Under the pieces are notes generated by a model that was given only the letters and a program-made list of their open reading frames with translations, did no database searches and was not told where the DNA came from. Positions 3,514 through 24,235 of a stretch of DNA of 31,081 nucleotides are shown piece after piece. Made by a program: the position numbers and the translations under genes. Each line of letters begins with the position of its first letter. Positions within the stretch are counted from its first letter, which is position 1. The stretch lies in the IMG/VR virus record IMGVR_UViG_3300031673_000319, positions 1 to 31,081 of that record, one strand, 5' to 3'. Source of the stretch: a virus.

Positions 3514-3711
3514 ATGTCGCTCGAAACAGGTCTGAAGTCTGTGTTTTCCCGTATCGGCGCGTGGTTAGCGGCGAGTGTACGGGATTTTTTGTACTTCCCC
3601 GGCATGGCCATGCTCGGCTACGGCCTCTATCTCTATCGGCCCTGGGTTGCCTTCTCCGTCTGCGGAGCCCTCCTGATGATCACCGGATACCTCATGGGGG
3701 ATGAAAAATGA
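3514..3711 (+). CDS. Small membrane protein upstream of portal
   Basis: A 65-residue protein with an amphipathic N terminus and a hydrophobic stretch from about residue 26 to 61 (FLYFPGMAMLGYGLYLY, then WVAFSVCGALLMITGYLM), consistent with two membrane-spanning segments in a hairpin. It ends in a short acidic tail. Its stop overlaps the portal start (ATGA). The ribosome site is weak. I do not recognise a family; it resembles small membrane ORFs found next to phage portal or lysis genes. A holin-like role is possible but the lysis genes proper lie at 11863. Confidence 0.6.
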   Translation: MSLETGLKSVFSRIGAWLAASVRDFLYFPGMAMLGYGLYLYRPWVAFSVCGALLMITGYLMGDEK

Positions 3712-4925
3712 GCCTCGTGGGACGCATGGCAAGACCGAAGGCGATGAACAGCGAAGAGTTGTCTAGGATGATCTCTTCGGTTTTTGGCGGCGGGTCCACC
3801 TCTTCCGGCGTGTCGGTCAGTTCAGATACAGCCATGCGGCAGGCGACGGTTTATGCCTGCGTCAAGGTGCTTTATCAGTCCATCGCGCAGATGCCCTGTC
3901 ACCTCATGGAGCAGATAGGTGATAATAAAGAAAAGGCACTCAGTAAACGGCTCTACCGACTTCTACACGATCAACCGAACCAATGGATGACGGCCCCGGA
4001 ACTTTGGGGGATGTCCGTTGCCCACGTTTCCCTCCGGGGTGACTTCCTCGCATTTAAGGTCATGGTCGGGGATGAAGTACGTGAGCTTTTACCGATTGCT
4101 ACCGAACGGGTTAAAGAAATCACGCAGAACGCAGATTATTCGCTCACTTACAAGATAGCCTCCCCGGACGGATCAAACACAACGCCTTATCCGCAAAGTA
4201 AGATTTTACACATTCGCGGGTTATCTTTAAACGGCTATACCGGCCTGAACCCGATTACATATCTCCGGGAGTCCATCGGCCTCGGGTTGGCGGGCGAGAG
4301 ATTCCTTTCGGGATATTTCGGGAAAGGGCTACATCCGAGCGCAGTTATTACCCGTCAGAACCAGATAAAAAACATCAAAGATTACAAGGATGCAACGAAG
4401 GCGGTTTACGCTGGCCTCGCTAATTCCAGCGATCTCATGGTGCTAGAAGATGGCGAGACAATCAACTTTCCGCCCATTAAACTGGTCGATGCTCAGTTTC
4501 TCGAACTCGGCAAGTTTACGCAGTCTCAAATCTGTGGCCTTTTCCGTGTTCCCCTGATGCTGGTCCAGGCGGGGGATGCACCAACGACCTACGCCAGCGC
4601 CGAACAGTTCATGCTCGCCTTCGTCACGCACGCCCTAACCCCCATCGTCGTAAATATCGAAAAGGCGATCTATCGGGATCTCCTGACCGAAGAGGAGAAG
4701 AAACGATATTTTGCGAAATTCTCGATGGCGGGGTTACTCCGGGGAGATATGGAGTCCAGATTTAAATCCTATCAAGTGGCTATAAATTCAGAGATATTAT
4801 GTCCGAACGAAGTCCGCGATCTTGAGGATTATAACGCTTATGAAGGTGGAAACGAGTACCGAACAAGAACGTCTAGTCTGAAACAGGACGGAGAACCTCC
4901 TGTCACGCAGAAGGGAAAGAAATGA
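3708..4925 (+). CDS. Portal protein, HK97 family
   Basis: This 405-residue protein forms the dodecameric ring at the capsid vertex through which DNA enters and to which connectors attach. The block TVYACVKVLYQSIAQMPCHL near residue 47, then LLHDQPNQWMTAPELW near residue 85, is the hallmark of HK97-like portals. So is the LHIRGLSLNGYTGLNPI region near residue 164. Length is normal. It is coupled at its 5' end to the small membrane protein and at its 3' end to an HNH gene by 4-base overlaps, so the HNH insertion has not disturbed the reading frame. Confidence 0.95.
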   Translation: MSLVGRMARPKAMNSEELSRMISSVFGGGSTSSGVSVSSDTAMRQATVYACVKVLYQSIAQMPCHLMEQIGDNKEKALSKRLYRLLHDQPNQWMTAPELWGMSVAHVSLRGDFLAFKVMVGDEVRELLPIATERVKEITQNADYSLTYKIASPDGSNTTPYPQSKILHIRGLSLNGYTGLNPITYLRESIGLGLAGERFLSGYFGKGLHPSAVITRQNQIKNIKDYKDATKAVYAGLANSSDLMVLEDGETINFPPIKLVDAQFLELGKFTQSQICGLFRVPLMLVQAGDAPTTYASAEQFMLAFVTHALTPIVVNIEKAIYRDLLTEEEKKRYFAKFSMAGLLRGDMESRFKSYQVAINSEILCPNEVRDLEDYNAYEGGNEYRTRTSSLKQDGEPPVTQKGKK

Positions 4926-5653
4926 AAGTTTGCCGCCGGTGCAACAACGAAAAACCCGAAACAGCCTTTTCGAAAGGTCCACGATGCAATGAGGGACTAT
5001 CTTATTGGTGTAAGGACTGCTGCAAGAAATACAGAGAAGAAAATAGGGACCGCATCAGGCAAACGAAAAAAAAGAAGTATGAAGAAAACAGGGAATCAAT
5101 AATAGCCAAAGTGAGAGCATACAATGACTCTCGAAAGGGAGAATACAGGGAATATCAAAAAAAGTACCAAAAGGAATATCAGATACTTAATCGAGAAAAG
5201 CGCAACGGGCAAGTACGCGCATGGATAACCGCAAACCCGGAAAAATCCAAAGAGATATTCAGCAGATCGTGCGCGAAGCGACGCGGAACGGTAAGCGGAA
5301 AACTTAACGGAAACGTATCAAGGCAAATGCGGAAATCTTTGCAAAGTGACTCGAAGGCGGGACGGCATTGGGAAGAGTTGGTCGATTTCACCGTGGATCA
5401 ACTAAAGCGGCACCTCGAGAAATTATTCAGTCCCGAAATGAATTGGGGAAACTACGGCACCGTTTGGGAAATAGACCACAAGGTTCCGATAGCCGCCTTT
5501 AACTTTGAGCACCCAGGCGACATTGATTTTCGCCTGTGTTGGTCGTTGAGGAATTTACAGCCACTGGAAGCGTCGAAAAATATGAGCAAGGGGGCGCGGG
5601 TCGAAAGGCCGTTCCAACCATCATTGGCCCTTGCCGCAGGAGGATTACGATGA
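4922..5653 (+). CDS. HNH homing-type endonuclease 1
   Basis: A 243-residue free-standing HNH endonuclease. Residues 4-33 hold a zinc-ribbon-like pair of CxxC motifs (CRRC, CKDC). A long Lys/Arg-rich DNA-binding middle follows (about 35-140). The C-terminal nuclease starts at WEIDHKVPIAAFNF (catalytic Asp-His) and continues with LRNLQPLEASKNMSKGAR, which supplies the Asn and metal-site residues. It overlaps portal (ATGA at 4922) and the protease (ATGA at 5650), so it is translationally coupled on both sides. It is a clear paralogue of the HNH gene at 6484. Such genes spread by cutting alleles that lack them. Confidence 0.9.
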   Translation: MKVCRRCNNEKPETAFSKGPRCNEGLSYWCKDCCKKYREENRDRIRQTKKKKYEENRESIIAKVRAYNDSRKGEYREYQKKYQKEYQILNREKRNGQVRAWITANPEKSKEIFSRSCAKRRGTVSGKLNGNVSRQMRKSLQSDSKAGRHWEELVDFTVDQLKRHLEKLFSPEMNWGNYGTVWEIDHKVPIAAFNFEHPGDIDFRLCWSLRNLQPLEASKNMSKGARVERPFQPSLALAAGGLR

Positions 5654-6480
5654 ACCCATTAGCATACAGAAACGAAAAGAACGCCCACGCGATTTCCGCT
5701 TTTTGGGGGAAGTCTCTCGACAAGCCTGATTGGTATTCAATCAACGCCCTGGCTGCCGATACGGCTGAGATATTCATCTACAATGTGATCGGGTGGCCGT
5801 TCAACGATATCGGCGGACTGGTGCGTGAGATGGCAGGGATGAAAGACAAACCCATCCTTGCCAGGATCAACTCCCCCGGAGGTGACGTATTCGACGGAAT
5901 GAGTCTGTTCAACGCATTTGCTAACCATCCGGGCGGGGTGACTGTCCGCATTGAAGGGATGGCGGCATCGATAGCCTCCACTGTGGCGATGGCTGGCAAG
6001 AAGGTTGAGGCATATCCCAATACGATGGTCATGGTTCACAACGCTTGGGTTTACGCAGGAGGCGACCACAACGTCCTCCGGGAAATCGCGGATATCACCG
6101 AGAAAATAAGTGGCCAGATGCAGGACATCTACACCGGGAAAACCAAGACCGGCAAGAAGGAAATGAAAAAGATGATGGACGATGAAACCTATATGACGGC
6201 TCAAGAGGCATTAGATAAGGGGTTCATTGATACCATCTTAAAGAATGGCAAGGGGGTCAAGGCTGAATTCGATCTTCCCTTCGCTAACGTGCCTGATTAT
6301 TTCAAGGCAGCAGACAAAGAACTAACTGAACGAGATGCAGAGAAAGCCCTGCGAGATGCCGGGTTTTCAAGACATAAAGCTAAGGCCCTGCTTGCGGCGG
6401 GGAAATACGTACCGGACGAAGAAGAAATAGAAAGCATAAAGGCGCTGTGTAAAAAAACGATTTCTATTATTCAGGGTTAA
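5650..6480 (+). CDS. ClpP-like prohead maturation protease
   Basis: A 276-residue serine protease of the ClpP/S14-related phage group, expected to cleave the N-terminal scaffold (delta) domain of the capsid protein during head maturation. The ClpP fold is marked by INSPGGDVFDG near residues 73-83. The nucleophile motif GMAAS places Ser107 at the catalytic position, and VMVHN places the general-base His at 130. The AGGAGG ribosome site 6 bases upstream and the ATGA overlap with the preceding HNH gene fix the start. A longer in-frame start at 5536 would translate HNH sequence and is rejected. The C terminus carries an LRDAGFSRHKAK segment that is echoed downstream of the next HNH gene. Confidence 0.93.
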   Translation: MNPLAYRNEKNAHAISAFWGKSLDKPDWYSINALAADTAEIFIYNVIGWPFNDIGGLVREMAGMKDKPILARINSPGGDVFDGMSLFNAFANHPGGVTVRIEGMAASIASTVAMAGKKVEAYPNTMVMVHNAWVYAGGDHNVLREIADITEKISGQMQDIYTGKTKTGKKEMKKMMDDETYMTAQEALDKGFIDTILKNGKGVKAEFDLPFANVPDYFKAADKELTERDAEKALRDAGFSRHKAKALLAAGKYVPDEEEIESIKALCKKTISIIQG

Positions 6481-6483
6481 GAA

Positions 6484-7200
6484 ATGAAAACCTGCTCAAA
6501 GTGCAAAAAAGAAAAACCGCGAAGCGAGTTTCACAAAGATCGCTGTAGCCACAGCGGGATAAAAAGCTGCTGTAAGGAATGCCTGCGACCGATTTCCGCC
6601 GCGCGTTATCCCATCTATGCAGCTAATAATGTGGAGAAAATCAAGGAAGGAAGGAAGACCAAGTACAGAAAAAACAAAGAACAAAGCAAGGTATCTGCCA
6701 AGCAGTGGAAAAAAGATCACCCAGAAAGGGCGCGAGAGTTAGGTACATCCTGCTCTAAGCGATGGAGAGCAAATAACCCAGAGAGGGCGAGGGAATTATA
6801 TACCAGGCACGATAAAAAGGTATTGAGTACGCCAGAAGGAAAATTAAACCGCAATATGTCCAGGCTAATCAACCATTGCCTTCATGGGTTAAAGGAATAC
6901 CGCAAATGGGAGTTGCTTGCGGGATATACAACCGAACAACTCAAAGAACATCTTGAAAAACAATTTACGCCAGGCATGACCTGGGCAAATTATGGAGAAT
7001 GGCACGTAGATCACAAAACGCCGAGAGCTGTTTTTAATTTTAACACTGCCGAAGATATTGATTTTGGGCGGTGTTGGGGCTTGGAGAATTTGCAGCCCCT
7101 GTGGGCAAAGGAGAACATGAGCAAGGGTGCGCGGCTCGACAGACATTTTCAGCCAGCGCTTGCTATGGGATGCGGAATAGAGAGCCGTTGCGGGATGTAG
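6484..7200 (+). CDS. HNH homing-type endonuclease 2
   Basis: A 238-residue paralogue of the HNH gene at 4922, with the same order: N-terminal CxxC pair (CSKC at 4-7, CKEC at 30-33), a basic repeated middle (HPERARELG, NPERARELY) and a C-terminal HNH nuclease (WHVDHKTPRAVFNF, then LENLQPLWAKENMSKGAR). It begins three bases after the protease stop and in the same frame (TAA GAA ATG). The ribosome site is weak, so expression may depend on coupling to the protease. Together with the other HNH genes it marks repeated invasion of the head module. Confidence 0.9.
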   Translation: MKTCSKCKKEKPRSEFHKDRCSHSGIKSCCKECLRPISAARYPIYAANNVEKIKEGRKTKYRKNKEQSKVSAKQWKKDHPERARELGTSCSKRWRANNPERARELYTRHDKKVLSTPEGKLNRNMSRLINHCLHGLKEYRKWELLAGYTTEQLKEHLEKQFTPGMTWANYGEWHVDHKTPRAVFNFNTAEDIDFGRCWGLENLQPLWAKENMSKGARLDRHFQPALAMGCGIESRCGM

Positions 7201-7208
7201 CGTCTCTC

Positions 7209-7313
7209 ATGGAAAAAGCTGACGTTTTTCTGCGGGATGCAGGATACCGAAGGCGCGGAAATCGATCAATAGCGGCACAAATCAAGAAAAATAAAGCAAT
7301 ATTAGGAGGATGA
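7209..7313 (+). pseudogene. Small ORF or remnant resembling protease C-terminus
   Basis: A 34-codon ORF fills the gap between HNH 2 and the capsid gene and can be extended in frame to an ATG at 7173 (46 codons). It contains FLRDAGYRRRGNRSIAAQIKK, similar in pattern to the LRDAGFSRHKAKALLAAG segment near the C terminus of the protease at 5650. A third partial echo (PLRDVASL) lies just upstream. I read it as a leftover of an older protease 3' end displaced by the HNH insertion. It could instead be a small independent gene. It ends one base before the capsid start codon and carries the capsid AGGAGG ribosome site. Confidence 0.45.
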
Positions 7314-7314
7314 A

Positions 7315-8550
7315 ATGGCAACAATCGACGAAGTAAAGTCTCTCGTTGAAGAGCTAGGCCGGACGTTCGAGGTTTTCAAGGTCAAGAACGATGAAGAACT
7401 AAGACAGATCAAGGCCAGTGGTCACGCGGACCCGCTCTTGACTGCAGAAGTCGAGAGAATCAATGCAGAGATAACCGAAATATCCATCATGAAACGGCAG
7501 CTTGAGGCCGTCGAAACGGCGGTCGCGCGGGGAGTATTGCCCGGCGGAGGACGTTCAGAAATCGACGGAGTGAAGGCCGAGCATAGGGCAGCCTTTGAGA
7601 AATGGTTCAGGAAAGGCGGAGAGGTTCAGTTGGCGGCTGTCAGGCAGCTTCAGATTCAGGCCGGCCTTTCCACTCTCTCTGACCCCGATGGTGGGTATCT
7701 GATTGCCCCCCCGGAGTTCGATCAGGCCATTGACCGTGTGGCGGGAACGCTGTCTGCAATGAGACGACTCTGCACCGTCAGAACAATCGGCACCGATACC
7801 TATAAGAAGCTCGTCAATCAGGGCGGGTCTACTTCCGGGTGGGTGGCCGAGAAGGAAACCCGTGCCGAAACCGACACTCCCGTTCTGAAAGAAATCGCCA
7901 TCAATCAGAAAGAGGTCTATGCGATGCCTGGTTGCACGCAGGTTTCTCTTGATGATTCAGTTATTGATCTTGCGTCATGGCTGGCCGATGAAGTCACTGT
8001 TGAGTTTGCGGAAGAGGAAGGCGATGCGTTCATCAACGGCAATGGTGTCGAGAAACCCCATGGAATCGCGGCTTACTCTTTCGTCGCCGACTCCTCCTAC
8101 GCTTTCGGGAAGGTCGGATATGTTGCCAGCGGTCATGCAAGTCTGATTAACAACGTCGACAAGCTGATGGATGTCACCACGGCGCTGAAATCCATTTACC
8201 TCAACGGAGCTTCGTGGCTGATGACTCGCGCAACGATGGGCAAAATCCGGCAGTTGAAGAACGGCGAGGGCGATTACATCTGGAGAGCCGGTTTGGAAGC
8301 GGGCGCACCTAACACCCTGTTTGGTTATCCGGTTGATACGGACGACAATCTGGATGCAATCGGTGCAGGGAAGTACCCGGTGTTCTTCGCCAACTGGAAG
8401 AGGGCCTATCTGATTCTGGATCGGCTTGGGATAAGGATTCTGAGAGACCCCTATACGAGTAAGGGAAATGTATTATTCTACACAACTAAGCGAGTTGGTG
8501 GAGGAATTGTCATGTACGAGGCCATAAAATGCCTCAAAGTTTCGGCTTAG
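7315..8550 (+). CDS. Major capsid protein, HK97 fold
   Basis: This 411-residue protein builds the icosahedral head. Residues 1 to about 100 form a charged helical region matching the delta/scaffold domain that the protease removes. The mature part begins around SDPDGGYLIAPPEF (near residue 120), a classic HK97-type landmark. It continues with the E-loop and spine region (VRTIGTDTYKKLVNQGGSTSGWVAEKE, given here only as position about 160-185) and the P-domain helix around DEVTVEFAEEEGDAFINGNG. Length and position after portal and protease agree. A strong AGGAGG precedes the start. Confidence 0.95.
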   Translation: MATIDEVKSLVEELGRTFEVFKVKNDEELRQIKASGHADPLLTAEVERINAEITEISIMKRQLEAVETAVARGVLPGGGRSEIDGVKAEHRAAFEKWFRKGGEVQLAAVRQLQIQAGLSTLSDPDGGYLIAPPEFDQAIDRVAGTLSAMRRLCTVRTIGTDTYKKLVNQGGSTSGWVAEKETRAETDTPVLKEIAINQKEVYAMPGCTQVSLDDSVIDLASWLADEVTVEFAEEEGDAFINGNGVEKPHGIAAYSFVADSSYAFGKVGYVASGHASLINNVDKLMDVTTALKSIYLNGASWLMTRATMGKIRQLKNGEGDYIWRAGLEAGAPNTLFGYPVDTDDNLDAIGAGKYPVFFANWKRAYLILDRLGIRILRDPYTSKGNVLFYTTKRVGGGIVMYEAIKCLKVSA

Positions 8551-8562
8551 AAAGGATTGTGA

Positions 8563-9327
8563 ATGGATCGCTTAACGCCACAGAATGATCGCAAGTGTAC
8601 CATCGCCGGATGCGAAAACCACGGGAACATTCGACACGGTTTCTGCAATCTGCATTATCGGAGATGGAGAAGGCACGGAGATCCGCTCGGTGGCGGTCCT
8701 TTGCAAGATCGGGAGAAATGGGGTTCACCCGTGACCGAAAAACCCGAAAGGCAATGCTCGGTCGCGGGTTGCACTCGAACCCTGTTGGCTCAAGGACTTT
8801 GTTCGGCCCATTACGGACGTTGGACTAAATATGGAGACCCTCTCGGGGGTGGCCCCGATAGAAAACCGGCGTCAGAACAGGGAAGAAAAAAGTGTTCATC
8901 GTCCGGTTGCGAAAAACACGCAACGACGAGGGGATTTTGTTGCGGGCATTATGCGCGGTTTATGAAAGGTGGGGATACCACGACACCCCTTACCAGGCAA
9001 AACATAAACAAGGCACAGTGCATGAGCAACGGGTACTTATTTTACACCGACCAAACGCACCCTTTGGCGAGCAAACGCGGAAAGGTTCTACTCCACAGGG
9101 TTGTGATGTCGGAAAAATTAGGGCGACTGGTTAGGGAAAACGAGATTGTCCATCATATTAACGGGGATAGGGCCGACAATAGGCCGGAAAACCTGGAACT
9201 ATTCGTTAGTGGACATCCCTCCGGTCAACGACCAGAAGACCTCGTAGCATGGGCGTATGAAATCATCGCCCTCTATGGGGACGAAATCAAACCAAAGCTG
9301 CGCTTAGTCGCGGCACAGAATCAATAG
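8563..9327 (+). CDS. HNH endonuclease with three tandem zinc fingers
   Basis: A 254-residue endonuclease unrelated in its N-terminal part to the two HNH genes upstream. It has three tandem finger-like units, the first C12-x4-C17-x10-C28-x2-H31, each followed by RW.[RK].GDP or a variant. The first two end in the identical linker GDPLGGGP. A C-terminal HNH_3-type nuclease follows: LLHRVVMSEKLGR, then IVHHINGDRADNRPENLELF with the catalytic His-His and Asn. The fingers probably choose the target. It lies 12 bases after the capsid gene and is the third free-standing HNH gene in 4.4 kb. Confidence 0.92.
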   Translation: MDRLTPQNDRKCTIAGCENHGNIRHGFCNLHYRRWRRHGDPLGGGPLQDREKWGSPVTEKPERQCSVAGCTRTLLAQGLCSAHYGRWTKYGDPLGGGPDRKPASEQGRKKCSSSGCEKHATTRGFCCGHYARFMKGGDTTTPLTRQNINKAQCMSNGYLFYTDQTHPLASKRGKVLLHRVVMSEKLGRLVRENEIVHHINGDRADNRPENLELFVSGHPSGQRPEDLVAWAYEIIALYGDEIKPKLRLVAAQNQ

Positions 9328-11862: not shown

Positions 11863-12075
11863 ATGGGAGACGGGATAAGCAGGGAGACATTTGACGGGAT
11901 GGATGTGGATAGCAAACTCGGCGTTCTGTTTGACTATGTGAGAGACAATCACACCTGTTTCATTGATCTACGGGACAAGATGAGCAAACGGAAACGATTC
12001 GATACGGTTATGTCGGGCCTTGGCGGGATGTTCGGCGGGGCGGCGACGTTTTTGGGGATCAAGTGGAGTGGGTGA
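11863..12075 (+). CDS. Holin-like small membrane protein (XhlA-like pattern)
   Basis: A 70-residue protein with a charged N-terminal helix (DVDSKLGVLFDYVRDNH) and one hydrophobic C-terminal segment, about residues 48-67 (VMSGLGGMFGGAATFLGIKW), preceded by SKRKRF. This layout matches haemolysin XhlA-like phage proteins: cytoplasmic amphipathic domain, basic stop-transfer, single C-terminal anchor. It lies one base upstream of the lysozyme gene, the classic holin position. It would form or regulate the membrane lesion that releases the endolysin. The GGGGG ribosome site is good and could be masked by upstream RNA pairing. Confidence 0.65.
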   Translation: MGDGISRETFDGMDVDSKLGVLFDYVRDNHTCFIDLRDKMSKRKRFDTVMSGLGGMFGGAATFLGIKWSG

Positions 12076-12076
12076 G

Positions 12077-12553
12077 ATGCTGATGCTCAGAGAAATGCTG
12101 AAACGTCATGAAGGCTTAAGTCTCAAGCCTTACCTCTGCTCTCGCGTCCACATGACGATAGGATGGGGCTGGAATCTGGACGCCCACGCCCTGCCGGTTG
12201 ATATAGCGGCGTGTCTGCGGGTCACGGGGTCAATCACGGAGGCCATGGCGGAACGGCTCCTGAATATATCGATCACGAACGCAACCGATGACTGCCGGGC
12301 CATATATCCCGGTTTCGACAAACTCAGCGAGCCCCGGCGCTTCGGCCTTATCGACTTCATGTTTAACCTGGGTGTGACGAAGATACTGCACAAATTTCCG
12401 GCTTTCTATTCCGCGGCATGTCATCACGATTGGAACCGAGCAGCAGACGAGATGCAGTACACGGATGGACTTAAAAAAGACCAACTATCCGACTACTGGA
12501 AACAGACAAAGGGACGGGCGGTAGAAATAGTTGGAATGATTAGAGAGGGGTAA
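12077..12553 (+). CDS. Endolysin, T4-type lysozyme (GH24)
   Basis: A 158-residue muramidase that cuts the glycan strands of peptidoglycan at the end of infection. The family motif is clear in MLKRHEGLSLKPYL and TIGWGWN. The catalytic Glu is E12 and the Thr is T27. The residue nine positions after the Glu, normally Asp, is C21, giving E-8aa-C-5aa-T. Cys at this site is known in some natural endolysins and in active T4 lysozyme variants, so activity is expected. There is no signal peptide, so it needs the adjacent holin candidate. Longer in-frame starts upstream overlap the holin gene and lack family similarity; GGAG lies before the chosen ATG. Confidence 0.92.
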   Translation: MLMLREMLKRHEGLSLKPYLCSRVHMTIGWGWNLDAHALPVDIAACLRVTGSITEAMAERLLNISITNATDDCRAIYPGFDKLSEPRRFGLIDFMFNLGVTKILHKFPAFYSAACHHDWNRAADEMQYTDGLKKDQLSDYWKQTKGRAVEIVGMIREG

Positions 12554-12556
12554 GAA

Positions 12557-13297
12557 ATGAAAAAGCTACTTGCAATCCTAACAGTCGTACTATTCCTGGC
12601 ACTGCCGGTTTGGGCGGAGGATAAAGACGATCCGAAGCCTGACAAAGCCAAGTGTCCGGGAACCCCTATGCAAAGCGATTGCCTGACCTGCCATACCCTA
12701 TTGGGTAACAAGATGGTGTTGAAAGAGTTCCCTCCCGACGCATGGCGGACCTATCCGACCAATGTTCCAATGAGGGTGATCAGTGATGTTGGCCGTTTCG
12801 TTCTGACCGATATTGATTCACGGGGCATTTCTGAGTTCTTCGCATACCTGAATCGCCACGGAATCAAAAAGGCTGTGATTGAGCTCCATTCCCCAGGCGG
12901 AAGTCTATTCGACGCCCAGAGGATCGTCAACATAATCAAGGAATGGCAATCAGGCGGCGGCACGGTAGAAACCCGGCTTTACGGAATGGCGTTTTCTGCG
13001 GGATTCTATATTTTCGTATCTGGGGATCATCGCTTAGTTTCTGCCGATTCCGATCTGATGTGGCATGAGCTGTTATCGTTCGAAGGGTTTGGACTCAAAT
13101 TGACTACACCCTCAGACAGTGAGCAATCGGCAAAAATATTGAGGCACCTCCAGGATGTCAGAAATAATTATCTCGTCACGAGGGGCAAACTTACAAAGGC
13201 GGAACTGGATGCCAAGATAAGCCGCCGCCAAGAGTGGTGGATGACGGGCAGGGATGCCGTAGAACTCGGCTTTGCAGACGGGTTTATTGGGAAATAG
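12557..13297 (+). CDS. Exported ClpP/SDH-type serine protease with CXXCH motif
   Basis: The 246-residue protein starts with a clear signal peptide (MKKLLAILTVVLFLALPVWA, cleavage likely after A20). A C-L-T-C-H motif follows at residues 42-46, the pattern used for covalent heme c attachment, with an extra Cys at 33. Residues about 70-246 are a ClpP-like domain: LHSPGGSLFDAQ near 110-121, nucleophile Ser147 in GMAFSAG, and His170 in MWHEL. It parallels the prohead protease (Ser107/His130) but is exported. It lies 3 bases after the lysozyme gene, so it may act in the periplasm during lysis or in host modification. Whether heme is bound is unknown; the CXXC could instead form a disulfide. Confidence 0.8.
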   Translation: MKKLLAILTVVLFLALPVWAEDKDDPKPDKAKCPGTPMQSDCLTCHTLLGNKMVLKEFPPDAWRTYPTNVPMRVISDVGRFVLTDIDSRGISEFFAYLNRHGIKKAVIELHSPGGSLFDAQRIVNIIKEWQSGGGTVETRLYGMAFSAGFYIFVSGDHRLVSADSDLMWHELLSFEGFGLKLTTPSDSEQSAKILRHLQDVRNNYLVTRGKLTKAELDAKISRRQEWWMTGRDAVELGFADGFIGK

Positions 13298-13342: not shown

Positions 13343-13780
13343 ATGACAAAGGCATATAACAATCTATTTGTGGAATATTTCCGTGGAGATCCTAAAAGGT
13401 GCCGCTTAACTATGCCCTTGAAGGCGTACAGTGATGTTTTGAGCCGAGACATCGAAGCCCCCATCGGATTTGTCAACGACATGGAATCCGTGCCTATCAT
13501 CAAAGGGACAAACAACGAAAGCGGCGTATGGCATGACTATTTCAGCCGGAGCGATTCAGATCCGGTTGTTGATAAAACCACCTGTGCGAAAATTTATCTT
13601 GAGTTTCAGAAATACTATGATCTTCAGGAAGGTGGATTTTTTAACGCCGTTTGGGACTTTATGCGCCGATGGTTCAAAACAGGCGTGGTTTGGGTAGTTC
13701 CATGTTACTTCCATAAGTACAAAGTCATGGCGACCTATGAGGAGATCATAGCAAATCCTAACCCCTATGGTTCAATGTGA
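13343..13780 (+). CDS. DUF1353-like lysis-module protein
   Basis: A 145-residue protein whose centre, APIGFVNDMESVPIIKG (near residues 39-55) followed by GVWHDYFSRSD, matches the DUF1353 pattern of G-F-x-x-D-x-x-S-V-P and a later H-D-Y. The conserved Asp and His suggest a metal site. DUF1353 proteins are frequent beside phage lysis genes and are suspected peptidase-like enzymes, but no function is proven. A hydrophobic aromatic stretch near the C terminus (FMRRWFKTGVVWVVPCYFHKY) could be a membrane contact. The start follows GCAGGGG. Confidence 0.7.
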   Translation: MTKAYNNLFVEYFRGDPKRCRLTMPLKAYSDVLSRDIEAPIGFVNDMESVPIIKGTNNESGVWHDYFSRSDSDPVVDKTTCAKIYLEFQKYYDLQEGGFFNAVWDFMRRWFKTGVVWVVPCYFHKYKVMATYEEIIANPNPYGSM

Positions 13781-13840: not shown

Positions 13841-15159
13841 GAGTAACAGGCGAGCAGTACAAAAAAGCACAGGGTTTCCCCTTAGAGGTAGATTCGTTAT
13901 TCCACGCGCTTACCTATGTCATTGACAAAGGGGAACCGCGTTGCCTTGAGTATCCAGATAACTTCGATAGTGCGGTCTATATTGCTTCATACAATGATCT
14001 GATGGCTGCGGGGATAACCGATGGACTGAGCCATTATCTCCGATATGGCTGGAAAGAAGGACGATGGCGCATACCTCCCGATTTCGATGGAGCGGCCTAT
14101 ATTGCATACTGGAAGGACGTCCGGGAGGCCGGATACACGGCGGCGGACGCGGGGGTGCATTATAACAGGTTCGGGTACAAGGAAAAACGGTGGCCCCTGC
14201 CTGCGGGCGAGATAAAAGCATTCAATGCCATCCCTGCATTGGATGATCCGGATAACTGTTATTTCACCGCCTGCCGGGTAAATGGGGAGATGCGGTTTGC
14301 AACGTATAAGGACGGCAGCTATACCGCCCATATAAAGAACATTGCCGGAAAAGTCCTTGATTCCTTTAATTGCGAGTCATGCTTTATGATTATCCCGTTC
14401 AAGGGTGGGTACAACATGTCTCAGGAACATGGCAGGTATTCGACTGTTGACAAGGGGATGATCTACCGCCTTATCAATGGTGTCTGGCAGGAGGTTTATC
14501 GACATCCTCGATGGACACTGATAACAGAAATGCATGTTCACACGGATGGTTATTTGTATGCCACAGGAGGAAAGTGGGGCGATTCTTCCGATCCTGCCGG
14601 AATTGTCCGATCCCTTGATGGGGTGAATTGGGAAGTCTGGTATGAGAATCTCTATGAATATCGCTTCTGGGGTATGACTTCGAAGGATGGAAATCTCTGG
14701 ATTGCCTCAACTTCATCCGGCACAGACTGGGGAGCTAATGACTGCCGGCCTTCTGTGTTCTGCAATAAAGCCTTGGCATTGACTGACTATGACCATCCCA
14801 ACAGCGGCTTCTGGGCCATCGAAGCATGGAATGATGACATCTATCTAGGCAGGTGTGGAGATGCGGCGGTTGTGCGATTCTCCGACAAGAAAGAAGTCCT
14901 GACCATGCCGGGATACGAATCTATCCACGACCTGGCCATTGACAAGAAGACCAACACCCTAATCGCTTTCTGTAATAAATCTGCCGGATCAGGCGCAATA
15001 GTGAAAGCCACAAAGGATGGCAATAACTGGTACACGATGGATGAAGGATTTACTGTTCCATTGATCGTAGACGGTTATTATGACGATCAGGAGGATGCAC
15101 TCTATTTGTGTGCTGGTGTGTTCACTGGTCGAGGGAAGATTTACAAGAGCGAACGATGA
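13837..15159 (+). CDS. Protein with two surface-type repeats and a beta-propeller-like domain
   Basis: A 440-residue protein. Residues about 40-118 hold two copies of a repeat of the form P-x-x-F-D-x-A-x-Y-I-A-x-Y-x-D-[LV]-x-x-A-G followed by H-Y-x-R-[YF]-G-[WY]-K-E-[GK]-R-W. This repeat is common in large bacterial and phage surface proteins. From about residue 125 the protein has recurring blades with Trp and Gly-rich turns (SLDGVNWEVWYE, MTSKDGNLWIAS, ATKDGNNWYTMD), typical of a propeller fold. It has no signal peptide, so a virion fibre or tail-tip adhesin is a reasonable inference. It is coupled to its neighbours by ATGA overlaps on both sides. Confidence 0.55.
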   Translation: MRVTGEQYKKAQGFPLEVDSLFHALTYVIDKGEPRCLEYPDNFDSAVYIASYNDLMAAGITDGLSHYLRYGWKEGRWRIPPDFDGAAYIAYWKDVREAGYTAADAGVHYNRFGYKEKRWPLPAGEIKAFNAIPALDDPDNCYFTACRVNGEMRFATYKDGSYTAHIKNIAGKVLDSFNCESCFMIIPFKGGYNMSQEHGRYSTVDKGMIYRLINGVWQEVYRHPRWTLITEMHVHTDGYLYATGGKWGDSSDPAGIVRSLDGVNWEVWYENLYEYRFWGMTSKDGNLWIASTSSGTDWGANDCRPSVFCNKALALTDYDHPNSGFWAIEAWNDDIYLGRCGDAAVVRFSDKKEVLTMPGYESIHDLAIDKKTNTLIAFCNKSAGSGAIVKATKDGNNWYTMDEGFTVPLIVDGYYDDQEDALYLCAGVFTGRGKIYKSER

Positions 15160-16016
15160 TGAAACTTTTATTGATGCTTCTATTGTTAATCGGCTGTGGC
15201 GACGCGGATAATCCGCAGATCGTGACCCACACGATAACCAACGGCGTGATAACTGTCCGTGCAAGCGAGCAGTTTGCCGGGGCCGTTGATTCCCTGAAAT
15301 ATCAAGGGGTTGAGTTTCTGGACGCTACGGATCATGGGCGTATGCTTCAATCCGCCCAGAGTTTCTGCGGATACGGCGAGTGTTATAATCCCACAGAAGG
15401 TGGCTCGATGTCCGACGGATACTTGCCTACGAGCAGCAGCCGCTTGCAGGCTATTGTCGCCAAAAGCGATTTGCTCTGGACTGAGACACAGATGGCCTTC
15501 TGGTTACGCCCTGGGGAATCATCGGACTGCGGGATGGCAAGAAATACACAGGTGATTTCCGACCATATCATGAACAAAACCGTCCAGATAGGCCACTTAG
15601 TATCACATCATGTTATCGACTACCAAGTGCAGTTTTATATTCCAGAGTATTATTCCAGGGGGGTGTACGAGGTCTTGACCGGATATATGCCCTCGGAGTT
15701 TTCATCGTTCTGGCGCTACAATCCGGCGACCGGAGAGATAAGGGTGGAGGACTATACGACACAAGAAACCCCCCTAATTTATACCAATGCCGAGAACTAT
15801 GCGATGGGGATCTACTCCCCCGGATTGGTTTACGGGAGTTTCACGGCTGCCGAGCTGAAAACCCCCGGAGTCGTGAAATGGAACATGGTGCAACGCCTGA
15901 CGGATGTTCAGGCCGGGACGTATGGGTACAGGTGCTATGTCATTGTGGGATCTCTTGACGAGGTTAAGGACTCCATGACACGACTGCACGAATACTTGTC
16001 CGGGATAAAAAGATGA
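15156..16016 (+). CDS. Predicted lipoprotein, all-beta, unknown function
   Basis: The 286-residue product begins MMKLLLMLLLLIGCG, a lipoprotein signal with lipobox L-I-G-C and an Asp three residues after the Cys (GDAD). The mature part is strand-rich, with blocks such as FAGAVDSLKYQGVEFLDATDHG and VIDYQVQFYIPEYYSRGVYE that resemble beta-sandwich carbohydrate-processing proteins, but no family was recognised. A phage lipoprotein made in this region could block receptors or surface glycans against superinfection; that is inference. The start overlaps the previous stop (ATGA); a second ATG at 15159 is equally possible. Confidence 0.6.
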   Translation: MMKLLLMLLLLIGCGDADNPQIVTHTITNGVITVRASEQFAGAVDSLKYQGVEFLDATDHGRMLQSAQSFCGYGECYNPTEGGSMSDGYLPTSSSRLQAIVAKSDLLWTETQMAFWLRPGESSDCGMARNTQVISDHIMNKTVQIGHLVSHHVIDYQVQFYIPEYYSRGVYEVLTGYMPSEFSSFWRYNPATGEIRVEDYTTQETPLIYTNAENYAMGIYSPGLVYGSFTAAELKTPGVVKWNMVQRLTDVQAGTYGYRCYVIVGSLDEVKDSMTRLHEYLSGIKR

Positions 16017-16090
16017 AATCCACAGGCGCGAAACTGAAGGCCGAGTCGAAAAAGCAGAAACGGGCCAAACGGAGGAAAAAGAAGAAATGA
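16013..16090 (+). CDS. Tiny lysine-rich ORF (25 aa) coupled on both sides
   Basis: Twenty-five codons start within the lipoprotein stop (ATGA at 16013) and stop within the next start (ATGA at 16087). Fourteen residues are Lys or Arg; the C-terminal half is almost all basic. The double overlap makes translation likely. No family is recognisable at this length. Confidence 0.5.
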   Translation: MKSTGAKLKAESKKQKRAKRRKKKK

Positions 16091-16452
16091 AAAGATTAGC
16101 CATCGTTTTAACCATACTGATTCTTTCCGGTACGGCCTTCGCCGCCCACAGGTTCACGGAGAGGGTCTACCAGATCGAGTGGTGTACGGAGCATGGCGGC
16201 ATCATTGAATACGTGCTTCCCGACAAGACCCGTGTTGACTGCCTGACGGATGAGTATGCTGTGGAGGTGGACTTCGGGCCGAAGTGGGCCGAGGGAGTGG
16301 GCCAGGCGCTTTACTACGCGGCCCGAACCGGGAAGAAGCCGGGCATCGTGCTGATTCTCGAAAAGCCAAGCGACCGCCGGCACGTTCTGAAGCTCAACAT
16401 CCTGGCTGAAAAGTATGGAATTAAGATTTGGGTGATCGAGGGATGGAGATGA
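16087..16452 (+). CDS. Exported small protein with PD-(D/E)XK-nuclease-like pattern
   Basis: A 121-residue protein with a signal peptide (MKRLAIVLTILILSGTAFA, cleavage after about residue 19). The mature part has RVDC with Asp51, then EVDF with Glu60 and Asp62, then GQALYYA with Gln73, followed by GIVLILEKP and IKIWVIEG strands. This D...E-x-D...Q order recalls the PD-(D/E)XK nuclease fold and matches uncharacterised exported proteins often seen in phage and proteobacterial genomes. The usual Lys of the motif is replaced by Asp62, so catalysis is uncertain. It is coupled to the lysine-rich ORF upstream. Confidence 0.6.
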   Translation: MKRLAIVLTILILSGTAFAAHRFTERVYQIEWCTEHGGIIEYVLPDKTRVDCLTDEYAVEVDFGPKWAEGVGQALYYAARTGKKPGIVLILEKPSDRRHVLKLNILAEKYGIKIWVIEGWR

Positions 16453-16468
16453 AATACAGGAGGACACG

Positions 16469-16882
16469 ATGAAAAAGTCACTGTTTGGTTTCTTGATTTT
16501 GCTGCTTCTTGCGATCCCTATATTCGGATTCGCAGAGGATCAGCCATTAAGCAAGTCCCTAAACTTTGCATGGGAGCAGGATAACCCGGAGTATATCACC
16601 GGCTGGTCGCTGTACTGGACTCCCACGGCAGGGGCTGGATATGTGAAGGTGGTGGATATCCCTTATATCACAGGGGCGGGACCGACGTTTACGACCTCGA
16701 CAGTTCTGGCTGTCACGGGTACGCCAGGAGCTACGGTAGACAAATATTTCGTGCTGACGGCGACAGGGAAGAACGGGAAGCCCTCGGGGTATTCAAATGA
16801 GGTAAGTTATGGATTCGTCATCCCCTTCCCGACGCCGAGTGCACCGTTCAACCTGATAATCACAGTGACTGTCACACCATAA
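16469..16882 (+). CDS. Exported fibronectin type III-like protein
   Basis: A 137-residue protein with a signal peptide (KSLFGFLILLLLAIPIFGFA). The rest looks like one FnIII-type beta-sandwich: SLNFAWEQDNPEYITGWSLYWTP near the start of the domain, and KYFVLTATGKNGKPSGYSNEVSY near residues 92-114, the usual last strands. Such domains bind carbohydrate or mediate weak surface contacts. It ends in a Pro/Thr-rich tail. An AGGAGG ribosome site precedes the start. It belongs to a run of exported products between lysis and fibre genes. Confidence 0.65.
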   Translation: MKKSLFGFLILLLLAIPIFGFAEDQPLSKSLNFAWEQDNPEYITGWSLYWTPTAGAGYVKVVDIPYITGAGPTFTTSTVLAVTGTPGATVDKYFVLTATGKNGKPSGYSNEVSYGFVIPFPTPSAPFNLIITVTVTP

Positions 16883-17328: not shown

Positions 17329-19391
17329 TGGCGACAAGAACTTGGCACGGCGGGACAGACTCAGACTGGAACACTGCTGCAAACTGGGCAGAGAATGCTG
17401 TTCCTACAAGTTCTGATGATGTTGTTTTTGATGATTCAGCGCATACCTATACGTTGAATTTATCTGCTAATGCGGCTGCTAAATCTTTTGTTACTACGGG
17501 CACTATAAATGGGATAACATTTACATCTACTGGTTATAAAGAATTTCGTGTGTATGGCGATATAACTCTAAAATTAACAGATAATGTTTCCGTTGGTAGA
17601 TTAATTGCTGCGGCAACGGGTACTATGTCGCAAAACGGGGCGACATTAGCTAATTTTCAGGTCATTGCAGCAGGTTGTACTGTTACTTTAGGGAGTGATT
17701 TGAATACCGGTGCAGGATTAGTATATTGGACTTATGGAACGCTAGATACAAGCAATAATAATTATGAGATAAACTGCGGCGATTTTTCCGATTCTTTAAC
17801 TACACAATTTAGAGGACTAACATTAAATTCGTCTGTTTTAAATTGTAAATCTTTTATAGCCAGTCCATTTAATTTAACTATTAATGGTACTGACCACACC
17901 ATCAATATCGCCCACGGCGCCCATGCCCACGATAACTTCGGCGGTGCATCCTGGGGCATCGTCAACCTGAACCTGACTCCCACAGCAGCGGTGATCTACA
18001 ATATAGACGGCAATGCTGCCACTTTCGTGCAGTTCAATGTCAATCTTCTTGCCTCACGGGCTGATTGTCAACTCACATTAGCCCATGACATCACAACGGG
18101 CAGCGCGACCTTCACAGGTAAAGATTCAACCAATATGCTTATATTCAATTCTTCCGTCCACGAAACAGCTCGCACCCTTACCGACACGGCAGGGACAAAC
18201 ATATTCACGAACGTCAGAATTCACGACATGACGGCTGCCGGCGGGGCCGTATGGCAGGCTCTATTGACTGATGGGAATTTAGACGATGGCGGGAATGATG
18301 GATGGACGTGGGCGGCAGGGGGCGGTAGCGCTTCGGAGTCAGCCAGCATCTCGGAATCCATGAGCGAGTCGGCTTCGGAGTCAGCCAGCATCTCGGAATC
18401 CATGAGCGAGTCGGCTTCGGAGTCTGCCAGCGAGAGCGCGTCTGAATCGGCTAGTGGGTCTGCCAGCGGGTCAGCTTCAGGTTCAGCCAGCGGATCAGCC
18501 AGCATCTCGGAATCCATGAGCGAGTCGGCTTCGGAGTCTGCCAGCGAGAGCGCGTCTGAATCGGCTAGTGGGTCTGCCAGCGGGTCAGCTTCAGGTTCAG
18601 CCAGCGGATCAGCCAGCATCTCGGAATCCATGAGCGAGTCGGCTTCGGAATCTGCCAGCGGCAGCGAGTCCGGATCGGCCAGCGAATCTGCCAGCGGATC
18701 AGCTTCAGGTTCGGCTAGCGGATCGGCCAGCATATCCGAATCCATGTCCGAGTCGGCTTCGGAATCTGCCAGCGAGAGCGAGTCCGGATCGGCCAGCGAA
18801 TCTGCCAGCGGCAGCGCTTCAGGTTCGGCTTCGGAGTCCGCCAGCATATCGGAATCCATGAGCGAGTCGGCTTCGGAATCTGCCAGCGAGAGCGCGTCTG
18901 AATCTGGTAGTGAATCCGCATCAGGATCGGCATCTGAGTCAGCTTCTGGTAGTGCTTCAGGTAGTGCCTCTATCTCAGAAAGTGAGTCAGAATCTGCCAG
19001 TGAAAGTGCTTCCGAGTCGGCTTCGGAATCAGCCAGTGAATCAGCTTCTGGGTCAGAGAGTGCATCTGAATCCGAGAGCGCTTCGGAGAGTGCGTCTGGA
19101 AGTACCTCTGGTTCTGCCAGCGAATCGGCCTCCGAATCGGCAAGTGGCTCGGCTTCCGCGAGCGCGTCTGGGAGTGAATCTGCATCAGAGAGCGAAAGTG
19201 CAAGCGGGTCTGAATCTGCAAGCGAAAGTGAGTCCGCATCAGAATCCATGAGCGAGTCGGAATCCGCGAGCGCAAGTGAAAGTGCCTCAGAGAGCGCATC
19301 ACCTTCTATTGAATTTCTTTCATCACTACCAATCGTATCTGCTTACGGGGTGCATAGTGCAATCATGGGAGGTCAAATTGTCAGTGGATAG
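17328..19391 (+). CDS. Serine-rich repeat virion/fibre-type protein
   Basis: A 687-residue protein. Residues 1 to about 330 are beta-solenoid-like, opening with TWHGGTDSDWNTAANWAENAVPTSSDDVVFD, a pattern of extracellular and phage surface proteins (positions 5-35). Residues about 335-658 are almost pure Ser-Ala-Ser-Glu/Gly repeats, including SISESMSES units with a 38-residue period. The last 30 residues (from PSIEFLSSLPIVSAY) are a distinct hydrophobic end. There is no signal peptide, so virion attachment is more likely than secretion. The repeat is mucin-like: about every second residue is Ser. The enzyme encoded immediately downstream has an O-glycosyltransferase motif set. The first ~550 bases are AT-rich and the rest GC-rich, showing a mosaic gene. 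Confidence 0.75.
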   Translation: MATRTWHGGTDSDWNTAANWAENAVPTSSDDVVFDDSAHTYTLNLSANAAAKSFVTTGTINGITFTSTGYKEFRVYGDITLKLTDNVSVGRLIAAATGTMSQNGATLANFQVIAAGCTVTLGSDLNTGAGLVYWTYGTLDTSNNNYEINCGDFSDSLTTQFRGLTLNSSVLNCKSFIASPFNLTINGTDHTINIAHGAHAHDNFGGASWGIVNLNLTPTAAVIYNIDGNAATFVQFNVNLLASRADCQLTLAHDITTGSATFTGKDSTNMLIFNSSVHETARTLTDTAGTNIFTNVRIHDMTAAGGAVWQALLTDGNLDDGGNDGWTWAAGGGSASESASISESMSESASESASISESMSESASESASESASESASGSASGSASGSASGSASISESMSESASESASESASESASGSASGSASGSASGSASISESMSESASESASGSESGSASESASGSASGSASGSASISESMSESASESASESESGSASESASGSASGSASESASISESMSESASESASESASESGSESASGSASESASGSASGSASISESESESASESASESASESASESASGSESASESESASESASGSTSGSASESASESASGSASASASGSESASESESASGSESASESESASESMSESESASASESASESASPSIEFLSSLPIVSAYGVHSAIMGGQIVSG
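18331..19302 (+). repeat. Ser-Ala-Ser-Glu/Gly coding repeat array
   Basis: Low-complexity codon repeats encode the serine-rich domain. A higher-order unit starting at TCGGAATCCATGAGCGAG (or TCCGAATCCATG) recurs at 18393, 18507, 18621, 18735 and 18849, exactly 114 bases (38 codons) apart. Units 18393-18506 and 18507-18620 are identical; later units diverge by many synonymous changes. An extra 42-base unit lies at 18351. Reverse-strand and shifted frames are open only because of this repetition. Confidence 0.9.
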
Positions 19392-21492
19392 GGTGTCCGT
19401 AATCATAGCAGGCCGGTCTGAGCAATACTTTCAACGCACCGTGGAGTCAGTTCTTGAAGCGGCTACAGGAGACGTTGAGGTGATTGCTGTAATCGACGGC
19501 GAAGAAGCGGACCCGAAGGTTCATTCCGACGATCCACGGGTGAAGATCGTCCGGCTGGAAACATCCATCGGCCAGCGGGCGGCATACAATCTGGGGGTCA
19601 GGGAATCAACCGGCAAGTACGTGATGAAGATTGATGCTCATTGCCTGTTGGGAAAAGGCTTCGATGAAATCCTGGCGGCCCATTGCCCGGAAAAAACCGT
19701 GGTCCTCCCAGAAATGCGCCGGCTGGATGTGAGGGCGTGGAAAGATAAGCCACGCGGAAAGACCCATTTCATGTATTTCGGTCTTGATCTGTATTGCCAC
19801 TTTTGGAGCGAATACCGCAAGCGCGAAGAGGCAAAGTGCGATTATCCAGAGGTGATGACCGGGCAAGGTTCATGCTGGTTCACCACAAGGGAATGGAATG
19901 ATCACATCGGCCTGTTAGACGAGGGAGTCGGCTCCTGGGGGAATGTCGGGATTGAGATTTCATTAAGGACATGGCTCTGCGGCGGCTCACAGATAGTCAA
20001 TAAAAAGACATGGCAGGCCCATTGGTTTAGACGAGATGATGGCGGTTTTACCTACCCGATGGATGGCAGGCAGGTTGCGAAAGCGCATAAATACACTTGG
20101 GAAAATTATTATTTTAAGGACAATGCATTTCCGAATCAAGTCAAGCCGTTCTCATGGCTGCTCAAGAAGTTTAACCCTCCGGGCTGGGATGCCTATTTAA
20201 TAGACGAATATAAATCGCCGAGAGTGATTGTTTACTATACGGACAGCAAACTCGAACCGAGACTGGCGGCAGCGGTTCGGAAGCACCTAAAGAAAATGGC
20301 GGGTCCGATCCCCATTATAAGTGTCAGCCAGGAACCCTTGAACTTCGGCAAGAACATCTGCGTCGGGGAAAAGCCGCGCTCGGTAATGAGCATGTTTGAG
20401 CAGCAGCTTGCCGGATTGAAGGCGGCTCCCGAGGGTTCGATTATCTATCTATGCGAGCATGATATCTTTTATCATTCAAGCCATTTTGCCTTTATCCCGC
20501 CGACTAAAAAACATTGCTGGTTTAACACCAATCGTTATCATCATAGGTTCGGGATGGATAGCTTCTTGAAGGCTAGGGGGAAGCGAGCATACAGTCAAGG
20601 GGTGGCATATAGGGAAATGTTGATTCCCCATTTTGAGACCAGAATAGCCGAGAGAGGAAAAATAAAAATACACATACCTTTTCATAATTTTGAATCGTCA
20701 AGGCCCAATGTGGATATCAGGCATGGTGCAAACCTAACTCCTGACAGTCACTACAAAAGAGATTGGATCGGGAGTAATTTGAAGGGTATTTATAACCTCC
20801 CGGGGTGGGGCGGGCCAAAACATTTCAGGTCAGTAGTTGGGTACAGGGAATTAAGCTCAGAAACGGGTCCAGAAAAGTCGGCTATTGCCGTGATAAACAG
20901 TAACGGTGGTGATCCAGTAGCATATCTTCGGAAAAAGTTTCGTCGGTCCCTGCCGCAGATGTCTCCTGTTCGATGCATATCGTTCAAGCGCGAAGGACTT
21001 CCAGTGATATTCAGAGATTTGCGTTTTGCAAAGGGAGCAGAAATCGGAGTTCGAGAGGGATTTTATTCCGAACAATTATGTAAAACCATCCCAAACATTG
21101 ACTTACTATGTGTGGATATTTGGGAGGTATACCCCGGTCACAAAGTTAAGAAGACTGCTGAGCAGCATTACGCCGAAGCACAGGAAAGATTAAAACCTTA
21201 TAATGCGAAACTCTGGAAGAAGGATAGCCTTGATGCAGCAAAAGAGATACCGGATGGATCTCTTGATTTTGTTTATATCGATGCAGCACATAGGTTTGAT
21301 AATGTCATTCAAGACCTTGTAACATGGGTGCCTAAAGTCAAGGTGGGGGGCATAGTGAGCGGTCATGACTACTACCGGGGAAGGAACAATGGTGTTGTAC
21401 CTGCGGTGAATGCCTACACATATGCCCACCAGATAAATGAATTTTTTCTGACAGACGAGAAAGAACCGAGTTTCTTTTGGGTGAAGCAATGA
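19378..21492 (+). CDS. Three-domain enzyme: GT27-like glycosyltransferase, second GT-like domain, methyltransferase
   Basis: About 704 residues from a TTG start with GGGAGG five bases upstream (GTG at 19384 is possible). Domain 1 (1 to ~275) is a GT-A fold opening with VSVIIAGR. It has the polypeptide GalNAc-transferase signature: D86-A-H88, then W187-G-x3-I-E193-I-S-x-R197-x-W-x-C-G-G203, then H215-W-F-R. The W-to-H distance of 28 equals that of human GalNAc-T2 as I recall it; the two residues that touch the sugar in that family (Glu-Asn) are V190-G191 here. Domain 2 (~280-500) has GLKAAPEGSIIYLCEHD with E360-H-D362, a DxD-like site. Domain 3 (~543-704) is a SAM methyltransferase (E555-I-G-V-R-E-G; D635 in VYIDAAH). 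Likely role: glycosylating, and methylating the sugar on, the serine-rich protein encoded upstream. Confidence 0.8.
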   Translation: MSVDRVSVIIAGRSEQYFQRTVESVLEAATGDVEVIAVIDGEEADPKVHSDDPRVKIVRLETSIGQRAAYNLGVRESTGKYVMKIDAHCLLGKGFDEILAAHCPEKTVVLPEMRRLDVRAWKDKPRGKTHFMYFGLDLYCHFWSEYRKREEAKCDYPEVMTGQGSCWFTTREWNDHIGLLDEGVGSWGNVGIEISLRTWLCGGSQIVNKKTWQAHWFRRDDGGFTYPMDGRQVAKAHKYTWENYYFKDNAFPNQVKPFSWLLKKFNPPGWDAYLIDEYKSPRVIVYYTDSKLEPRLAAAVRKHLKKMAGPIPIISVSQEPLNFGKNICVGEKPRSVMSMFEQQLAGLKAAPEGSIIYLCEHDIFYHSSHFAFIPPTKKHCWFNTNRYHHRFGMDSFLKARGKRAYSQGVAYREMLIPHFETRIAERGKIKIHIPFHNFESSRPNVDIRHGANLTPDSHYKRDWIGSNLKGIYNLPGWGGPKHFRSVVGYRELSSETGPEKSAIAVINSNGGDPVAYLRKKFRRSLPQMSPVRCISFKREGLPVIFRDLRFAKGAEIGVREGFYSEQLCKTIPNIDLLCVDIWEVYPGHKVKKTAEQHYAEAQERLKPYNAKLWKKDSLDAAKEIPDGSLDFVYIDAAHRFDNVIQDLVTWVPKVKVGGIVSGHDYYRGRNNGVVPAVNAYTYAHQINEFFLTDEKEPSFFWVKQ

Positions 21493-23956: not shown

Positions 23957-24235
23957 ATGGAAAATCTTGATGCAGCAATAGCGGAAGTGAAGGCGGTAAG
24001 GGAACATGATGAGGCTTTGTTGGCTGCAAAAGAGGCGGCTGAGGAAGGGAAGCCACTTTCGCAAATCACCCGCTCGGAATGGATAGCGTTTAATTGGATC
24101 GAAATCGCCTTGACGATGGGGGATGGCAGAACAGAAAGAATGTTTGACGCCATCACAATGCGGACCCCCGCAGAGGCTTTACAGGCTGCCGACGAGTGGG
24201 ATCAGACGGCGGAAGAAAGGGCGGAATTCGCATGA
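23957..24235 (+). CDS. Small acidic helical hypothetical protein (92 aa)
   Basis: A 92-residue, alanine- and glutamate-rich helical protein with AAGGAAATC before its start. No family recognised. It is coupled by ATGA to the glycosyltransferase at 24232, so the two are likely co-translated. Confidence 0.5.
   Translation: MENLDAAIAEVKAVREHDEALLAAKEAAEEGKPLSQITRSEWIAFNWIEIALTMGDGRTERMFDAITMRTPAEALQAADEWDQTAEERAEFA

Follow-up and report, generated by a model that had tools for sequence, protein, structure and literature searches.

The window, the whole 31,081-base stretch of DNA analyzed here from an uncultivated virus, contains two ClpP-like genes (Table 1). One encodes the head-maturation protease of the phage. 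The other, the subject of this study, begins with an ATG directly preceded by AGAGGGG and encodes a protein of 246 residues. Its start codon lies 3 bases behind the stop codon of the lysozyme gene (TAA, 12551-12553), confirming the sequence-only reading, which had placed it directly after that gene. The same reading described a signal sequence, the motif C42-L-T-C45-H46 and the ClpP residues Ser147 and His170 in one protein, and reasoned that homologues lacking the CXXCH or the catalytic Ser/His would make either feature incidental. All three features are indeed present, and the trio, including both the CXXCH and the catalytic pair, is kept in every one of the 12 full-length members of the family described below.

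Table 1. Features of the locus and of the encoded protein, with the head-maturation protease gene for comparison.
Feature	Position	Strand	Basis or remark
70-aa small protein 5' of lysozyme, possibly holin-like	11863..12075	+	blastp E 1.5e-7 to L020 69-aa protein
Phage lysozyme (endolysin), directly upstream	12077..12553 (listed as ORF 12020-12553)	+	PF00959 E 4.7e-09; phrog_7 endolysin; start by eye
ClpP-like protein, very probably exported, 246 aa	12557..13297	+	
Signal-sequence-like N-terminus, residues 1-20	12557..12616	+	hydropathy; cleavage site by eye
C33-P34-x-T36 ... C42-L-T-C45-H46, heme c-type CXXCH and third conserved Cys	12653..12694	+	12-member alignment
ClpP (PF00574) domain; Ser147, His170, Glu226 aligned with ClpP triad Ser111/His136/Asp185	12842..13288	+	
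Downstream gene, weak DUF1353/phrog_1158 match	13343..13780	+	
Head-maturation ClpP of the phage (comparison, outside the exported family)	5536..6480	+	in-frame ATG at 5650

The gene is a member of a small phage protein family, unlabelled until now, in which a ClpP-like domain is combined with an export signal and a strictly kept CXXCH. We found 11 further full-length relatives in uncultivated virus contigs, 36-51% identical to the window protein, and in view of these intact copies a frame or assembly artefact was rejected. Single-sequence scans with the window protein brought up no relatives, either among virus contigs or, using exact short motifs, among the genomes of bacteria and archaea; the relatives were recovered with two gapped DNA patterns. 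The first (W-H-E and W-W-x-x-G-like codons) matched 61 stretches in virus contigs and yielded L020, a full-length relative, and L042, a fragment of a second one that is complete as L082. The second (M-W-H/Q and P-G-G-x-L-F-like codons) matched 19 stretches, one of them L020 again, and yielded nine more full-length members and one partial. Both patterns partly impose the invariance of their own columns, including in part that of the catalytic His, while the CXXCH segment, C33 and Ser147 lie in neither. A later virus scan with the 12-member alignment, in which one of two motifs was enough for a match, gave no new full-length member.

When the ORFs of the fetched loci were searched with a profile, the 12 full-length members scored 320-383 bits and two partial members 268 and 163 bits, leaving a clean gap to the 20-64 bits of 19 other ClpP-like proteins. 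The CXXCH is present in all 12 full-length members and in none of these 19. The count of 12 excludes two partial sequences, L103, which lacks its N-terminus, and L042, which is the same gene as L082; L102 is three residues short in the alignment because it was aligned from base 5012 although its likely start is at 5003. The dN/dS ratios of three close pairs are 0.12 (L097/L106), 0.09 (L104/L108) and 0.03 (L096/L103), two more distant pairs being saturated; from the close pairs, the family is under purifying selection. Because the signal-like N-terminus, the CXXCH and the catalytic residues are conserved together across strongly diverged phages, all three appear to matter.

Beyond these contigs, two members were compared by tblastn with 50,697 records of cultured phages and 72,556 of plasmids. 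No recognizable member was among the matches listed, which spanned no more than 83% of the query, had about 25-33% identity and were Clp or head proteases where annotated; some Pseudomonas matches begin at query residue 37. Scanning bacterial and archaeal genomes with a two-member alignment, using only the motifs R[RK]QEWWM and M[QV][SK][DE]CLTC, gave no match; by eye, 10 of the 12 members lack these two motifs, so the genome scans are compatible with homologues in cells. Related phages identified through their capsid protein (L003-L018, several of them short fragments) have a head-maturation-type copy or none, where the record was searched, and the exported gene thus looks accessory in that group. 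We found no description of an exported or CXXCH-bearing phage ClpP in the literature, searched at the level of titles and abstract openings.

An export signal is indicated by hydropathy. The window protein begins MKKLLAILTVVLFLALPVWA-EDK: two Lys residues precede a 12-residue stretch with a mean Kyte-Doolittle hydropathy of 3.13, and an A-x-A-like cleavage site, judged by eye, comes after it. A hydrophobic stretch after 1-5 K/R residues is found in 12/12 members (12-residue mean 2.50-3.68), as against values of -0.02 to 1.54 for the same measure in eight controls from the other ClpP-like group. On these grounds the protein is very probably exported. Attachment as a lipoprotein through Cys33 was considered and rejected, since no lipobox precedes this residue by eye.

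The heme c-type motif follows the signal sequence. In the window protein it is exact (C42-L-T-C45-H46), and the only cysteines are at positions 33, 42 and 45; the L082 and L102 proteins likewise have no cysteines beyond those of the motif. Across the 12-row alignment, C33, P34, C42, C45, H46, S147 and H170 are invariant and T36 and D218 nearly so, giving a motif of roughly C-P-x-T-x(5-8)-C-x-x-C-H, in which the spacing from C33 to C42 varies and the T is not strict. A His directly after the second Cys is needed in a heme c site and unneeded for a disulfide, so the invariant H46 favors heme c over a plain disulfide. We lean, from these conserved residues, toward one covalent heme c on the protein.

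Several features fit a plain heme site less well. The third invariant Cys (C33) is unexplained by such a site. The only invariant His or Met columns besides H46 are H170 and M168, so there is no clear distal ligand; the candidates among invariant columns are C33, M168 and the catalytic H170, and a five-coordinate heme requires none. An ordinary class I cytochrome c would not fit into the N-terminal segment, which extends for about 50 residues beyond the signal, and no cytochrome model scored above its Pfam cut-off (the best, NrfB-like, reached E 0.13 in 2/12 members). Judged from the sequences, the third Cys, the absence of an obvious distal ligand and the small size of the segment leave room for a non-heme site, in which the same exported peptidase would use C33, C42, C45 and H46 to bind another metal (e.g. 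zinc) or to form a redox or disulfide site. C33 would then complete a Cys3-His set, and the absence of other cysteines from the window, L082 and L102 proteins and of a conserved distal ligand and a cytochrome domain would be accounted for. Against this, a neighboring Cys and His seldom share one zinc, their adjacency being a hallmark of heme c, and exported CXXCH sites are what cytochrome c maturation systems usually act on. We consider the non-heme site a serious contender that will nevertheless probably prove wrong.

The sequence-only reading had located the gene in the lysis module. We laid out 13 records and merged three look-alike pairs (L110/L111, L112/L103 and L115/L116), which gave 10 distinct contexts. 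In three of these, from divergent phages, an endolysin or holin-family gene on the same strand immediately precedes the exported gene; a fourth context is weaker. The upstream gene in the window is the endolysin, at the 3-base gap described above. In the L109/L107 context it is a holin-family gene (201 aa in L109; PF11351 E 3e-5, phrog_3427 holin), and in L102 it encodes a 181-aa membrane protein matching phrog_1544 (E 9e-33), with an M15 endolysin as the third gene upstream. Phrog_1544 is a PHROG without assigned function that is also matched by the L109 and L112 holin-family proteins. In both L109 and L102 the start of the exported gene overlaps the upstream stop as ATGA. The preceding gene in L020 encodes a small protein without assigned function, related to the 70-aa protein of the window (E 1.5e-7); the latter has no family match in Pfam or PHROG. 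In L112/L103 and L113, lysozyme or holin genes are found on the opposite strand at a distance of about 2-3.5 kb; no lysis gene was seen in four of the 10 contexts (L110/L111, L114, L115/L116 and L117) among the neighbors scanned, which made up part of each neighborhood. The lysis-module location thus recurs in divergent phages but is not general: the link holds for some members of the family, not for every one.

The lysis role can be advanced tentatively, and its main rival is a role at the host surface, in which the exported peptidase would act on surface or periplasmic proteins before lysis (e.g. in phage exclusion or receptor change). The four contexts in which no lysis gene was seen nearby, in neighborhoods scanned in part, are consistent with such a role, as are the copy that follows a tail sheath gene in L115/L116 and the L117 copy, whose neighbors are a radical SAM gene and the gene of an apparently exported trypsin-like protease. 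The window also carries a glycosyltransferase-like gene, as L020 and L117 do by eye, which fits the same role. What argues the other way is that in three of 10 contexts the gene directly follows an endolysin or holin-family gene, with an ATGA overlap in two divergent phages, and we think the host-surface role unlikely.

Other features of these neighborhoods were recorded in passing. In L117, a 119-kb virus record, the genes before the exported gene encode a trypsin-like peptidase (5631-6524, +; PF13365 E 1.1e-8), signal-bearing by eye, and a radical SAM/SPASM protein (6521-7975, +), so that two apparently exported proteases and a modifying enzyme adjoin. The phrog_1158-like gene found 3' of the exported gene in the window also occurs beside a lysozyme gene in L113 (5644-5997, -). 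Behind the lysis region of the window (15153-16882) are genes with lipoprotein- or signal-like N-termini by eye (15153, 16087 and 16469) and without PHROG matches. Three endonuclease VII/HNH-type genes (4922-5653, 6484-7200 and 8563-9327) occupy the gaps between the portal, head protease and capsid genes and the place behind them, as is common for free-standing homing-type endonucleases. A methyltransferase-matching gene (19276-21492) and a weakly glycosyltransferase-like gene (24196-24942) are found among the late genes; the mix in L020 is similar by eye.

To evaluate the catalytic domain, we compared the family with known ClpP sequences and structures. The window protein matches PF00574 over residues 96-244 (E 2.6e-11; 44.2 bits against a cut-off of 20.2), and each of the 12 members matches it with E no higher than 0.5 (best 6.5e-19). 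In an alignment with E. coli ClpP and two plasmid-borne ClpPs as references, Ser147 and His170 fall on E. coli Ser111 and His136 and are kept in 12/12 members. The column of Asp185 contains Glu in 10 members and Asn in two, and because the catalytic Asp is not kept we call these proteins ClpP-like rather than ClpP. The nearly invariant D218 was rejected as the ClpP-type Asp, since it lies eight residues before the aligned column.

The AlphaFold2 model of the window protein, built from the 12-row alignment, has a ClpP fold (mean pLDDT 76.7, pTM 0.66), and that of L107 is similar (mean pLDDT 81.6, pTM 0.67). VIA-align superimposed the two models on ClpP chains with Z 20.2 (rmsd 3.2 Å, 174 aligned) and Z 22.7 (rmsd 2.5 Å, 180 aligned), respectively, and Foldseek on the window model agrees. 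Confidence is low over residues 21-60, which include the CXXCH (pLDDT about 41-63), and we therefore draw nothing about metal or heme geometry from the model.

The substitution of Glu or Asn at the Asp position could mean that the protein is catalytically dead and that its ClpP fold serves in binding or scaffolding. Yet Ser147, which lies outside all search patterns, is invariant in 12/12 members, and the Asp column is also mostly Glu among the 12 other phage ClpP-like proteins in the alignment. A dead enzyme is thus improbable, and the conserved residues indicate that the protein is likely an active peptidase.

The nearest relatives by profile are head-maturation proteases. The best PHROG match of the exported protein is the head-maturation family phrog_94 (E 2.4e-24), and on the NCBIfam head-maturation model NF045542 (cut-off 120) it scores 59.7 bits, as against 165.3 for the head-maturation protease gene of the window. 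The sequence-only reading had called the exported protein a paralogue of that protease. In a maximum-likelihood tree of the ClpP domain (12 exported proteins, 12 other phage ClpP-like proteins and three ClpPs), the exported proteins form one clade (97/99), separate from the head-maturation protease of the window, and its descent as a copy of that gene was not borne out; the tree program warned that a long-branch effect may account for the way in which the exported and ClpP branches meet. The gene also does not lie between the portal (3708-4925) and capsid (7315-8550) genes of the window. As judged from the tree, it is not a recent copy of the head protease of this phage. That it is a second head-maturation protease or a decaying copy, with an accidental signal sequence and CXXCH, is extremely improbable: its top PHROG family fits such an origin, but its NF045542 score is under the cut-off, its clade is separate, its CXXCH is conserved, its position is distant from the portal and capsid genes, and its relatives are under purifying selection.

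We propose that the gene encodes an exported ClpP-fold serine peptidase that acts at the host envelope, probably carries one covalent heme c and belongs to the lysis module in a subset of phages, a composite reading that we hold to be as apt to be right as wrong. The gene would be expressed late together with the lysis genes. The protein would be exported by Sec and its signal sequence cut near residue 20. A cytochrome c maturation system of the host, which we assume to be present, would join one heme to Cys42 and Cys45, with His46 as the proximal ligand. Given this location, Ser147 and His170 (with Glu226) would cleave host-envelope peptides or proteins with no help from an ATP-driven unfoldase. 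Since a periplasmic ClpP-fold enzyme would be without ATP and unfoldases, small or unfolded substrates or a processing role would be expected. In the phage subset that includes the window, the protein, as the product of a lysis-module gene, would probably help to break down or prepare the envelope for lysis.

A more speculative extension, which we consider quite unlikely, is that a covalent heme c beside a ClpP-type active site lets redox state or gas binding switch the protease, with Cys33 as a possible second iron ligand, and that this may, in the lysis module, couple breakdown of the envelope to the collapse of host respiration. To our knowledge, and from the titles and abstract openings searched, no described system combines a ClpP-fold enzyme with heme gating.

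Few proteases have been studied as thoroughly as the ClpP-fold enzymes, which are regarded as cytoplasmic machines. An exported phage family with this fold and a heme c-type motif would take it to a new place and possibly under a new control. The family is also a candidate for how phages without obvious spanins open the outer membrane.

It is instructive to compare the family with known systems. With ClpP (PF00574, peptidase family S14) it shares the fold, the PGG-S segment and the aligned Ser and His, at about 16-24% identity to the family models in the structural alignments listed; it differs in having an export signal, a CXXCH segment and Glu or Asn for Asp, and in that no unfoldase partner is expected outside the cytoplasm. 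The head-maturation proteases (NF045542, phrog_94) are nearest by profile score and also mostly have Glu at the Asp position, but those examined have neither export signal nor CXXCH and belong to another clade and another gene neighborhood. Membrane or envelope proteases of the SppA, NfeD1b and SDH types resemble the family in their ClpP/crotonase-type fold and probably in their envelope location. The scores of the window protein are below the cut-offs for NfeD1b_N (12.7 bits against 40) and SppA_dom (21 against 155.45), and similarity to PF25145 is weak (E 0.097 for the window protein; 7/12 members at E up to 0.5). The exported family keeps a ClpP-type His, in contrast to the Ser-Lys dyad of the SppA and NfeD types. 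Like mono-heme c-type cytochromes, the family members appear to be exported proteins with a CXXCH; unlike them, they have no recognized cytochrome domain, and the motif lies in a very short segment joined to a peptidase domain. Finally, genes for envelope disruption are often found beside endolysin or holin genes, and the exported gene of the window adjoins such genes as those of phage spanins and other outer-membrane disruptors do. In contrast to spanins, the product looks like a soluble exported enzyme rather than a membrane-spanning pair.
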